Source of the DNA: a bacterium
Lineage (GTDB): Bacteria > Lindowbacteria > 2-12-FULL-62-27
Length of the DNA stretch: 29,293 nucleotides
Assembly (NCBI GenBank): GCA_016202645.1
Contig: JACQOF010000142.1
Span: forward strand, 1 to 29,293
Direction: 5' to 3'
Part shown: positions 8,137-20,490 of the stretch, one piece after another
How the letters are laid out: the number at the start of each line of letters is the position of its first letter
How positions within the stretch are numbered: the first letter of the stretch is position 1
The notes under the pieces: model-generated
Told to the model about the DNA's origin: nothing
The model's input: only the letters and a program-made list of their open reading frames with translations
Databases searched by the model: none
Program-made: the position numbers and the translations under genes

Positions 8137-8142
8137 TATAAT
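8137..8142 (+). promoter_or_regulatory. Candidate -10 element of the archease-rtcB leader
   Basis: A perfect TATAAT lies in the divergent gap between the BMC-like gene and the archease gene. A start near 8149 would give a leader of about 170 nt containing a strong terminator. The -35 is weak (TTCCAT at 8112-8117, spacer 19), so the promoter is tentative. An overlapping TATACT on the minus strand (8140-8135) could serve the divergent operon. Confidence 0.4.
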
Positions 8143-8148
8143 ATGGAG

Positions 8149-8292
8149 AGGATGACAATACCCCGGTCCGGGCTAAAGTTTTCCACAATGACCGCCGATG
8201 GGGAATGTAGCGGTCAAAGGTTCCCTCCCTTTACCCTGTTATCCGAAATTATGGGGCGAACGGCCGCGGCAGCCGTTCGCCCCGCTTTTTTT
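8149..8292 (+). ncRNA. Candidate structured leader or small RNA ending in an intrinsic terminator
   Basis: No convincing gene lies in this stretch. Hand folding gives hairpin 1 (TGACCGC 8189-8195 with GCGGTCA 8210-8216, 14-nt loop) and hairpin 2 (AAAGG 8216-8220 with CCTTT 8228-8232, 7-nt loop). Loop 1 contains GGGGAA (8200-8205), which can pair with TTCCCT (8221-8226) in loop 2, giving a possible kissing or pseudoknot contact. The terminator at 8253-8292 follows, and archease begins at 8321. It could be an attenuator/riboswitch-like leader of archease-rtcB or an independent short RNA. I do not recognise a known RNA family. Confidence 0.4.
8253..8292 (+). terminator. Intrinsic terminator upstream of archease
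   Basis: A perfect 12-bp stem (GGGGCGAACGGC 8253-8264 with GCCGTTCGCCCC 8272-8283) closes a 7-nt loop and is followed by GC and seven T residues (8286-8292). The T-run exists only on the plus strand. It lies 28 nt before the archease ATG, so transcription from the upstream promoter would have to read through it. Confidence 0.85.
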
Positions 8293-8320
8293 ATACCCCC
8301 CGAACAGTTAGACTTCACGC

Positions 8321-8755
8321 ATGGCTTACCGCTTCACCGATCACACGGCGGATTACGGCGTCGAAGTGAACGCCTTCACGGCCGAGGAGGCATTTTGCGA
8401 CGCGGTCCGGGCGATGTACGAGATCCTCTTTGGCGGGGAGGCGGCGCGGCTGTTCCGCGTCGGGAACAAGGGAACGCCGGGGCCGATCTCGCTGGCGGAG
8501 GAGTCTCTGGCGGATCTGCTTCACGCGTGGCTCTCCTGGCACCTCGACCGGTACACCCAGGACCGCCGCGTCGCGAGCGGCTGGCGGGTGCGGATCGATT
8601 TCCGGCAGGCACGGCTCACCGGCGAGACGTATCTTCAGGATGCGGGCGCGATGGACCTGAAGCCGGAAACCGAGATCAAAGCGGTGACCTACCACAATCT
8701 CAAAGCCTTCGCGAGCCTCGAGCGGACTCAGTTGCACTACATCGTGGACGTGTGA
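8321..8755 (+). CDS. Archease (RtcB cofactor)
   Basis: The 144-residue protein starts MAYRFTDHTADYG, with the archease DHTAD metal-site motif at 7-11. It carries EIKAVTYHNL at 118-127 and ends YIVDV with the conserved C-terminal Asp (143). Archease activates RtcB by promoting its guanylylation and allowing multiple turnovers. The stop TGA shares a base with the rtcB start (TGATG, 8753-8757), so the two are translationally coupled. Length is normal for the family. No strong ribosome site precedes the ATG. Confidence 0.93.
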   Translation: MAYRFTDHTADYGVEVNAFTAEEAFCDAVRAMYEILFGGEAARLFRVGNKGTPGPISLAEESLADLLHAWLSWHLDRYTQDRRVASGWRVRIDFRQARLTGETYLQDAGAMDLKPETEIKAVTYHNLKAFASLERTQLHYIVDV

Positions 8756-10161
8756 TGGACGTCAAAATCAAAAAGATCGGCGAACACCGCTATACGATTT
8801 CGAAAGCCGACCACCCTGGCCTGGCCGCCGATATCATTATCTATGCGACCGAAGACATCCTCGAGGCGATCCGAAAAGACCAAACGTACGTCCAGATCGT
8901 GAACGTCGCCTGCATGCCCGGTGTTGTGTCGCCTGTGCATCTCATGCCCGACGCGCATTTCGGGTACGGCTTTCCGATCGGCGCCGTCGCGGCGTTCGAC
9001 GCGGTTGATGGATGGGTCAGCCCGGGAGGCGTCGGCGCCGATATCAACTGCGGTGTGAGGCTCATGGCCACGAGCATCCCGGCCGCCGATCTCGACGCGG
9101 CACGGAAAAAATCCCTCGTCGAGGAAATGTTCCGAAAAATCCCAAGCGGTCTCGGGGTCGGCGGGCCTATCCGGCTCGAAGGGCGGTCTCTCGACGATGT
9201 CCTCGAACGCGGCGCGCCCGCCATTGTCGAAAAGGGGTTTGGCGTTCCGGAAGACTTGAAACACATCGAGGATTCCGGATCGATCGAGGGCGCTGATCCG
9301 GACGCGGTTTCGGACGCCGCCAAAAAACGCGGACGCGACCAGTGCGGGACGATGGGGTCCGGGAACCATTTCATGGAAGTTCAGGCGGTGGAGAAAGTTT
9401 TCGAGCCTGACCTCGCGGCAAGATGGGGCGTGGCGGAAGGCACTCTCGCGGTCATGATCCATTCCGGGTCACGGGGACTTGGATACCAGGTCTCGGACGA
9501 ATTCTGGAAACGCTCGAAAAAGGCCCTCTCGGAGTTCAATATCTCCATCGCTGACGCACAGCTTTCGCCCCTGCCCGTTCGGCACGAGCTGGGGCGCGAG
9601 TATCTTGCAGCGATGCGCGCGGCCGCGAATTACGCCTTCGCAAACCGCCAAGCCCTGATGCACCTTTCCCGGAAAGTTTTTGAACGGGAGTTCGGCGGTA
9701 AAGCGGAATCGCTCGGACTCAAGCTGGTTTACGACGTCGCGCACAACATCGCCAAGGAGGAGACCTACGAGACCGAAGGGCGAAAGAGATCCCTCTTGGT
9801 TCACCGCAAAGGCGCCACCCGCGCGTTTCCCGGCCAGCCGGTGATCATCCCGGGCGACATGGGCACCGCGTCGTATCTGCTGGTCGGCACGGATGAAGCC
9901 GTCCGCAGTTACTTCACGGTCTGCCACGGCGCCGGCCGGGTACTGTCCCGGACCGCCGCCAAAAAACGCGTGGATGTCGGTAAACTCGTGGCCTCGCTCC
10001 GGGAAAAAGGAATTGAAGTCCGCGGCGGATCGAAGGCGGGTCTTGCGGAGGAGGCGCCCGAGGCCTACAAGGACATCGAGCAGGTGGTCGAAGCGGTCGT
10101 CGTGAACGGACTGGCCAAACGCGTCGCGCGGCTCCGGCCGCTGTGCGTCATCAAAGGCTGA
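8755..10161 (+). CDS. rtcB: RNA-splicing/repair ligase RtcB
   Basis: The 468-residue protein carries the RtcB metal and guanylylation residues: LMPDAHFGYGFPIGAVAA, GGVGADINCGVR (D96, C99), GSGNHF (H205), IHSGSRGLGYQV (H236), VAHNIAKEE (H330) and the guanylate-accepting CHGAGR (H391). RtcB joins RNA 2',3'-cyclic phosphate or 3'-phosphate ends to 5'-OH ends using GTP and Mn2+, for tRNA splicing or RNA repair. Length is near that of archaeal and Thermus-type enzymes rather than the shorter E. coli protein. The reading frame is open upstream to 8143, but that part is archease DNA in another frame, and the ATG at 8755 fits the family start. Seven nt separate it from the next gene. Confidence 0.97.
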   Translation: MDVKIKKIGEHRYTISKADHPGLAADIIIYATEDILEAIRKDQTYVQIVNVACMPGVVSPVHLMPDAHFGYGFPIGAVAAFDAVDGWVSPGGVGADINCGVRLMATSIPAADLDAARKKSLVEEMFRKIPSGLGVGGPIRLEGRSLDDVLERGAPAIVEKGFGVPEDLKHIEDSGSIEGADPDAVSDAAKKRGRDQCGTMGSGNHFMEVQAVEKVFEPDLAARWGVAEGTLAVMIHSGSRGLGYQVSDEFWKRSKKALSEFNISIADAQLSPLPVRHELGREYLAAMRAAANYAFANRQALMHLSRKVFEREFGGKAESLGLKLVYDVAHNIAKEETYETEGRKRSLLVHRKGATRAFPGQPVIIPGDMGTASYLLVGTDEAVRSYFTVCHGAGRVLSRTAAKKRVDVGKLVASLREKGIEVRGGSKAGLAEEAPEAYKDIEQVVEAVVVNGLAKRVARLRPLCVIKG

Positions 10162-10888: not shown

Positions 10889-10916
10889 TTGACATTTTAG
10901 ATTTATATCATATATT
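10889..10916 (+). promoter_or_regulatory. Sigma-70-type promoter of the DUF4143 ATPase, predicted leaderless
   Basis: A perfect TTGACA (10889-10894) and a TATATT (10911-10916) are 16 nt apart in an AT-rich stretch. Six nt separate the -10 from the ATG at 10923, so transcription should begin at or next to the start codon. No Shine-Dalgarno is present. Confidence 0.7.
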
Positions 10917-10922
10917 TGAAGT

Positions 10923-12170
10923 ATGATTTCGCGACAGATGGAGACGTGGCTGAAGGCGGCGTTGCCGAAACCCCAGATCGTGCAGGTGACCGGGATGCGG
11001 CAGACGGGCAAAACGACCCTCTTGCGGCAATTTGTGGCAGGCGTCGCGCCCGCCGTTTCGTTTGATCTTCAGGATCTGGTGACCCTTCGCCGGTATGAGG
11101 ACGCGCCGGAGGATTGGGCGGTCGAAATTGAAACGGCGGTAAAATCGGCCCGAGGCCGCCTGAACGTGTTCGTCGACGAAATTCAAAAAATTCCGCCGCT
11201 CTTTCAGGCGCTGCAAGGTCTCTACGACCGGCACAAGGGCCGGGTCAAATTCTGGATATGCGGATCCTCCGCGGTTGCCTTGAAGCGGCGCAAGGCCGAG
11301 ACGCTGGCGGGCCGCGTGTTGGCAATGACTCTCTATCCGTTCAGCCAGACCGAGCTTCTGGGCCGGCCGTCCATCGTGCCCCGCCTCTTTTCGGCGTCGT
11401 GGAAAAGAAAAGTTCCGCCTGAACCCCGGGGATACCGGCAGATGCTCTCTGGATGGCTTACGCGGTCCCTCCTGCCGGAACCGTGCCTCACCCCAAAAGA
11501 TGCGGACGCGTTTGAACTGCTCGAAAATTACTCGGCCACGTACGTGGAAAATGAAATACGGCGGGAGAATCTGGTTTCAAATATCGGGACATTCGGAAAA
11601 TTTCTCATGCTGGCCGGCGCATACGATGGGCAAATCGTCAATTACAGCACTCTTTCAAGCGCGCTTGGCGTCAGCGGCAATACCGTGAAATCCTACTACG
11701 CCCTCTTGGAGGACACCTTCATCTGCCGCGCTCTGCCCGCATACAGCGGATCGTTCCGTGTGCAGGTGGCCAAAAGCCCGAAACTGTATTTGGCGGACGC
11801 GGGCCTGGCGCGGATTCTGGCGGGGCGCCGGCACGCGATTCGTCCGGAGACGCCGGAATTCGGCGCCGCGCTGGAAAGTTTTGTCGTGAACGAAATCATC
11901 AAGCAAATAGCCGCCGCCCGCCTTCCCTGGAAACTTTCCTATTTCCGGACATCCACGGGGGTCGAGGTCGATCTGGTCATCGAATGCGAGGGAAAAGCGG
12001 TGGCCATCGAGATTAAATCGTCGGCAAGGCCGTCGTCGAAAGACGCGGCAGGCATCCGAAGACTCATGTCCCTGGACCGGCGCATCAAAAAGGGTTTCGT
12101 ATTCAACCTCTCGCCATCCATTCACGAACTCTCCCCGCGCATTCATTCCATCCCGATTTGGGCAATCTGA
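10923..12170 (+). CDS. AAA-family ATPase with DUF4143 domain
   Basis: This 415-residue protein has a Walker A GMRQTGKTT (24-32), a Walker B LNVFVDEIQK (80-89) and a sensor-like FWICGSSA (110-117). The C-terminal DUF4143 part includes ENEIRRENL, a helix-turn-helix-like segment (LSSALGVSGNTVKSYYALLE), YLADAGLARIL and a PD-(D/E)XK-like core (GVEVDLVIE then AIEIKSS). Such proteins are common in bacteria and archaea, are often strain-variable and have no settled function. It stands alone on the plus strand next to a toxin-antitoxin remnant, which suggests an accessory insertion. If the mRNA is leaderless, 10923 is the start. Otherwise the ATG at residue 6 is possible. Confidence 0.9.
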   Translation: MISRQMETWLKAALPKPQIVQVTGMRQTGKTTLLRQFVAGVAPAVSFDLQDLVTLRRYEDAPEDWAVEIETAVKSARGRLNVFVDEIQKIPPLFQALQGLYDRHKGRVKFWICGSSAVALKRRKAETLAGRVLAMTLYPFSQTELLGRPSIVPRLFSASWKRKVPPEPRGYRQMLSGWLTRSLLPEPCLTPKDADAFELLENYSATYVENEIRRENLVSNIGTFGKFLMLAGAYDGQIVNYSTLSSALGVSGNTVKSYYALLEDTFICRALPAYSGSFRVQVAKSPKLYLADAGLARILAGRRHAIRPETPEFGAALESFVVNEIIKQIAAARLPWKLSYFRTSTGVEVDLVIECEGKAVAIEIKSSARPSSKDAAGIRRLMSLDRRIKKGFVFNLSPSIHELSPRIHSIPIWAI

Positions 12171-20046: not shown

Positions 20047-20490
20047 TCAGGGCAGAAGCGCGGAGACCGCCTGCTGGACGAGTTTGCCGTCGGCGCGGCC
20101 TTTGACTTTTGGCATGAGCGCGCCCATGACTTTGCCCATGTCGCGCTTGGAGGATGCGCCGGTTTCGGCGATCACGGCTTTGACCAGCGCCTGGATGTCT
20201 GATTCGGACATCTGTTCGGGGAGAAATCCTTTTAGAATTTCCATTTCCTGGGTTTCCTTGTCGGCCAAATCCGCGCGGCCGCCGGATGTGTAGGCTTCGA
20301 TCGAGTCCTGCCGTTTCTTGACGGATTTCTGGATCACGGCGAGAATATCCTCATCTGTCAGATCCGACTTCTTGTCGATCCGTACGTTGTTCAGGTCGGA
20401 CTTGAGCATCCGGAGGGTGTCCAGCCTCACCTGGTCCTTCGCCTTCATCGCCGTCTTGATGTCTTCGCCGATCCGCTCCAACAGGTTCAT
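20047..20490 (-). CDS. yqeY: GatB/YqeY domain protein
   Basis: The 147-residue protein starts MNLLERIGEDIKTAMKAKDQ and carries RLDTLRMLKSDLNN, SVKKRQDSIEAY, EMEILKGFLPEQMSE and the C-terminal GKVMGALMPKVKGRADGKLV. These are the standard YqeY features: the tail domain shared with GatB and, by family knowledge, able to contact tRNA. Its exact role is unclear. The ATG at 20490 follows a good GGAGGAACGAAC leader, 14 nt after the upstream phosphodiesterase stop. It is the last gene of the long minus-strand run. The common rpsU or dnaG neighbours are absent here. Confidence 0.93.
   Translation of the reverse strand: MNLLERIGEDIKTAMKAKDQVRLDTLRMLKSDLNNVRIDKKSDLTDEDILAVIQKSVKKRQDSIEAYTSGGRADLADKETQEMEILKGFLPEQMSESDIQALVKAVIAETGASSKRDMGKVMGALMPKVKGRADGKLVQQAVSALLP

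Follow-up and report, generated by a model that had tools for sequence, protein, structure and literature searches.

The window analysed here is a whole contig of 29,293 nucleotides from a Lindowbacteria draft genome, which comprises 146 contigs and is 82% complete. Its forward strand carries the genes for an archease (8321-8755; Pfam PF01951, E 1.3e-20) and the RNA ligase RtcB (8755-10161; Pfam PF01139, E 8.1e-154), and Pfam thereby agrees with the identities proposed in the first-pass annotation. In front of these genes, that annotation had described an attenuator-like leader beginning at a TATAAT motif, and each of its elements is indeed found in the sequence: TATAAT at 8137-8142, a first hairpin (TGACCGC/GCGGTCA, 8189-8216) with GGGGAA (8200-8205) in its loop, a second hairpin (AAAGG-TTCCCTC-CCTTT, loop 8221-8227), and a terminator with a perfect 12-bp stem (8253-8264/8272-8283) followed by seven T (8286-8292) that are separated by 28 nt from the archease start codon (8321). 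Their conservation was compared among three genomes of the uncultured phylum Lindowbacteria, the source genome and the relatives G001 and G002, which belong to one family and three genera. The TATAAT motif has a -35 match of at best 2/6 and is not conserved in the relatives. The first hairpin with its GGGGAA loop is missing from both of them, and the pairing of the complementary loops GGGGAA/TTCCCT is not conserved. For the upstream leader 8143-8250, the predicted fold is not more stable than those of shuffled sequences (z = +0.35).

A shorter element is found directly 5' of the archease gene in all three genera. In the three-genus alignment conservation sets in sharply at position 8208 (TAGCGGTC...) and ends with the terminator; pairwise comparisons of the part from 8208 to the terminator stem give 43-44 identities in 44-45 positions, whereas the DNA identity of the archease coding sequence in the same genomes is only 65-70%. 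The longest run that is invariant in all three genera measures 31 nt in this block versus 15 in the archease coding sequence, and 5' of 8208 the conserved bases are restricted to AAGTTWTCCACAA and CGAT. The element most likely represents a small RNA gene of about 84 nt on the forward strand (8208-8292, with a 5' end that probably lies at 8208-8212). It comprises a 5' hairpin with two bulged C and a 7-nt C-rich loop (8208-8238; loop UUCCCUC, 8221-8227), a near-invariant single-stranded linker UUAUCCGAAAUUA (8239-8251) and an intrinsic terminator stem-loop (8252-8284) that is followed by the T7 stretch at 8286-8292. The fold of 8208-8292 has a z-score of -3.8, and 0/200 shuffles were equally stable. 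Covariation, which had been suggested as a check of the leader, was found in the terminator, where 100% of the alignment cells of the helix are paired in the three genera, three pairs are changed on both sides and the stability amounts to -27 to -31 kcal/mol, but the first hairpin of the leader and the loop pairing are not conserved. The U-tracts of the relatives are interrupted (CCTTTTATA, CCTTATTTC). The 5' hairpin is predicted at -7.9 kcal/mol in all three genera; its fold stays a prediction because the invariant sequence leaves no covariation to test. A leader peptide in the conserved block was rejected, since the third codon positions are invariant as well and G002 carries one additional base where the hairpin meets the linker, which breaks any reading frame and makes a conserved peptide impossible. 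A GC stem-loop with a U-tract, a conserved structure and the absence of an ORF, the characteristics of an sRNA ended by an intrinsic terminator, are all seen here. The Rfam search proposed for the leader gave no family above the gathering cut-off and nothing credible at a permissive threshold. Exact searches with the 19-mer core of the element in all genome contigs returned Lindowbacteria and two chance-looking matches in Bacteroidetes/Sphingobacteriaceae that are not accompanied by the remainder of the element, and no match was obtained in viral contigs. The stretch 8208-8292 would be an RNA family new to Rfam, of a known kind. Of the two roles considered previously for the terminator, the end of an independent short RNA is supported by these data, but a conditional termination ahead of the RNA-repair genes is not.

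The RNA is preceded by a sigma-28 (FliA)-type promoter on the forward strand (8174-8201), with the -35 element TAAAGTTT at 8174-8181, a spacer of 12 and the -10 element GCCGATGG at 8194-8201. This arrangement, TAAAGTTT-N12-GCCGATGG, agrees with the consensus TAAAGTTT-N11-GCCGATAA (PMC2859248) at 14/16 positions, and the homologous sites of G001 (TCAAGTTA-N11-GCCGATAG) and G002 (TAAAGTTT-N11-GACGATCA) reach 13/16 and 14/16, respectively. Backgrounds for promoters and targets were drawn from 279 kb of the source genome and 400 kb of G001. Only one site scoring at least 14 occurs in the former, and it is the one at 8174-8201; in the latter four sites of at least 13 were found on both strands, the RNA promoter included, compared to two such sites in 1.2 Mb of Markov control (three simulated sequences of 400 kb size). 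The conserved RNA start follows the -10 element by 6-8 nt, where the transcript would begin. The promoter expected of a sigma-28-dependent flagellar sRNA is predicted in all three genera. The spacer contains, straight after the -35 element, the heptamer TCCACAA (8182-8188), which is kept in the three genera. Together with the preceding TT it resembles a DnaA box (TTWTCCACA), a reading that was set aside; the sigma-28 promoter accounts for the -35 part of this motif and not for TCCACAA.

As read from the genomes, a matching sigma-28 regulon is present in the phylum. Flagellins were found in all three genomes. In G001 and G002, FliA scores above the NCBIfam cut-off, and no FliA above this cut-off was found in the source genome, which may be due to the incompleteness of the assembly (82% complete), because FlgM is there. 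Perfect TAAAGTTT-N11/12-GCCGATAA sites precede flgM in the source genome and in G001 and a flagellin gene in G001 (spacers 12, 12 and 11), and sites of 15/16 were detected at a G002 flagellin and at a hook-like gene. A second candidate for a sigma-28-driven RNA was observed at L061:1499-1660 (C136:6028 of the source genome) and at L066 (C20:128609 of G001, minus strand). It shows TAAAGTTTCCAT-CCGATAG followed by the conserved hairpin AGCCTAACGGATAGGC, whose ACGGA loop is similar to a CsrA site, and then by a GGGCCAT...ATGGCC(C) stem with T7, the stem ends being seemingly compensated between genera; a search for it in G002 was negative.

In view of the sigma-28 promoter, flagellar gene starts were examined as possible targets of the RNA. 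The energies given in the following refer to the duplex only and ignore accessibility, the gene starts were chosen mechanically, and the gene-start background came from two of the three genomes (the source genome, G000, and G001). The loop GGUUCCCUCCC, which contains the predicted seed UUCCCUC (8221-8227), is complementary to Shine-Dalgarno (SD) regions of flagellin genes: duplexes of -38.0 and -32.3 kcal/mol were calculated for the G001 flagellins L076 (GGGAGGGAACC) and L075 (GGAGGGAGGAACCTGACC), -33.7 kcal/mol for the G002 flagellin L073 (GGAGGGAACC), and a weaker one of -30.6 kcal/mol for L071 (GGGGAGGGGGGAA), the only flagellin of the source genome, which also has no clear sigma-28 site. 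Among about 320 gene starts, these four rank at 0.3-1.2%. When only the 24-nt hairpin is used, 4/9 flagellin-family starts fall into the top 2%, and 0/600 composition-matched shuffles were as extreme. L075 is homologous to L073 (61% identity), and both are situated behind sigma-28 promoters. Complementarity to flagellar translation starts is thus predicted for 4/9 members of the family; it was looked for at four other flagellin starts and none was found, and the pairing with flgM, itself a sigma-28 gene, was not convincing. A scan of the three genomes with GGAGG-N0/1-AACC-N2-9-ATG returned 32 matches to this looser motif, among which GGAGGGAACC occurs at two flagellins and once inside an ORF, and the long complement AAAGGGAGGGAAC showed no genome-wide excess over a reversed control.

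It might be possible that the independent sRNA targets SD sequences broadly, or genes other than flagellins, and that the flagellin matches merely reflect its general anti-SD character. Any GGAGG-type SD can pair with a C-rich loop, and some non-flagellar starts score well, for example the start of a YqeY/GatB-domain-like gene in G001 (L139, C33:46670, minus strand; -34.0 kcal/mol). However, this match is not kept at the YqeY homologue-like gene of the source genome (window position 20490, minus strand; -19.4 kcal/mol with the core), shuffles matched in composition show no preference for flagellins, and the sigma-28 promoter indicates a role in motility. A general anti-SD function hence appears unlikely, albeit the most serious of the alternatives.

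Collectively, the conservation of the block, its compensated terminator, the promoter match and the flagellin complementarity support at the sequence level that 8208-8292 is probably an independent sigma-28-dependent sRNA, which pairs with the flagellin SD and lowers translation, archease-rtcB being its neighbour and not its target. Transcription of the RNA would start from the sigma-28 promoter (8174-8201) and stop at the intrinsic terminator; given this promoter, the RNA would be made when flagellin is made. In the cell, the exposed C-rich loop UUCCCUC would base-pair with the SD region of flagellin mRNAs, and the resulting decrease in flagellin translation might restrain the flagellar cascade in a feed-forward or feedback manner. 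We infer repression rather than activation from the overlap of the pairing with the SD.

The archease and rtcB genes would start separately, from a candidate near-leaderless promoter of their own with a -10 element at 8309-8314 (TAGACT, forward strand). In the source genome, G001 and G002 this element reads TAGACT, TATACT and TATACT at 6, 9 and 6 nt from the ATG, in each case downstream of the terminator and without an SD, while the -35 matches are weak (3/6, 4/6 and 3/6). Among 341 genes of the source genome and G001, 17 -10-like hexamers with a plausible -35 were located at 6-11 nt before the ATG (6 positions) versus about 9 in the other 44 positions, and this accumulation suggests that near-leaderless sigma-70 genes are common in the phylum. 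A near-consensus promoter, TTGACA-N16-TATATT (10889-10923), is also seen near the ATG of the leaderless-looking gene for an AAA_14/DUF4143 ATPase in the window. The terminator and the archease ATG are 28-65 nt apart in the three genera; the gap of about 65 nt in G002 (L004) contains a palindromic CCGCCTGCCTGCCGGCAGGCAGGC insertion.

Alternatively, the terminator could be leaky, such that sigma-28-driven read-through induces archease-rtcB together with the flagella and the sRNA is a by-product. The synteny of RNA and archease over this short distance in three genera and the interrupted U-tracts of the relatives are in line with such a scenario. It is nevertheless quite improbable, because the archease gene has its own conserved -10, the terminator stems are strong, and the upstream-facing neighbour gene of the source genome is unlike that of G001 and G002. 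Since this neighbour differs, the adjacency of RNA and archease may reflect simple linkage. The adjacency itself is conserved, and a weak coupling by read-through is conceivable. Likewise, there is only a slender chance that motility is coupled to RNA repair, with sigma-28 read-through or the RNA itself tying the expression or activity of archease-RtcB to the flagellar programme; if true, it would explain the lasting adjacency in three genera.

The reading as an attenuator or riboswitch leader of archease-rtcB, which would sense RNA damage or RtcB, as initially considered, or a ligand, could invoke the position of the terminator only 28 nt before the gene and the highly conserved block upstream of it. 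It is very unlikely, because no competing structure comes near the strength of the terminator: the best alternative with the 5' arm reaches -13 to -17 kcal/mol as opposed to -27 to -31 kcal/mol. In agreement with the first-pass annotation, which had seen no clear antiterminator, folding revealed none that is conserved among the three genera, and the stem changes its sequence while the block stays invariant. Moreover, the conserved promoter-like element sits inside the supposed leader, the TATAAT at 8137 is not conserved, and an Rfam match is lacking. A promoter downstream of 8292, which had been named beforehand as incompatible with such a leader, is predicted by the conserved -10 at 8309-8314, and its position 3' of the terminator argues against expression of the genes from an upstream promoter. 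Finally, an RNA resembling Y RNAs that serves the RNA-repair machinery as partner or substrate has a precedent in the noncoding RNAs beside rtcB (PMC7790460) but is highly improbable, because no Ro60/TROVE protein was found in the source genome (82% complete), the 5' and 3' ends do not pair with each other, a tRNA-like domain is missing and the RNA ends with an intrinsic terminator.

If our reading is correct, the element would found an RNA family of its own and, in the literature searched, no flagellar sRNA had been proposed before from bacteria other than Proteobacteria and Campylobacterota. Sigma-28-driven sRNAs that target flagellar translation would then seem to have arisen in distant phyla. 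Furthermore, a terminator just 5' of a leaderless gene need not be an attenuator, which calls for caution in attenuator surveys, especially in poorly studied phyla.

Regarding known systems, the rsr-yrlBA-rtcBA RNA-repair operon, which is controlled by RtcR in response to tRNA fragments (PMC7790460), shares with our locus a noncoding RNA adjoining rtcB; however, that operon carries Y RNAs, whereas the search of the source Lindowbacteria genome revealed no Ro60. The nearest functional analogues, as judged from this comparison, are the Campylobacter RNAs CjNC1 and CjNC4 (CJnc10 and CJnc170/FlmR) and the sigma-28-controlled sRNAs of E. coli. In E. coli, UhpU, MotR, FliX and FlgO act on flagellar genes, some of them on flagellin levels (PMC10578931). 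Sigma-28 control and flagellar targets, here predicted, are common to both, but the E. coli sRNAs are UTR-derived and Hfq-bound, and MotR and FliX pair inside coding sequences, whereas the candidate Lindowbacteria RNA would have its own intergenic gene and is complementary to SD regions. CjNC1 and CjNC4 are short, stand-alone intergenic sigma-28-dependent RNAs with a 3' terminator hairpin, which are conserved among relatives and for which base pairing with the RBS of mRNAs from flagellar genes, a flagellin among them, has been predicted (PMC4626219, PMC11187230). The likeness in stand-alone gene, sigma-28 promoter, terminator and predicted flagellin RBS pairing is one of architecture. The Campylobacter RNAs are shorter than 50 nt and located downstream of cydB and cj1633c, while the Lindowbacteria RNA measures about 84 nt, has a separate 5' hairpin and lies beside archease-rtcB. 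Moreover, the predicted targets of CjNC1 and CjNC4 are sigma-54 genes including that of the minor flagellin FlaB, whereas the Lindowbacteria RNA is predicted to target flagellins of which two are themselves behind sigma-28 promoters.
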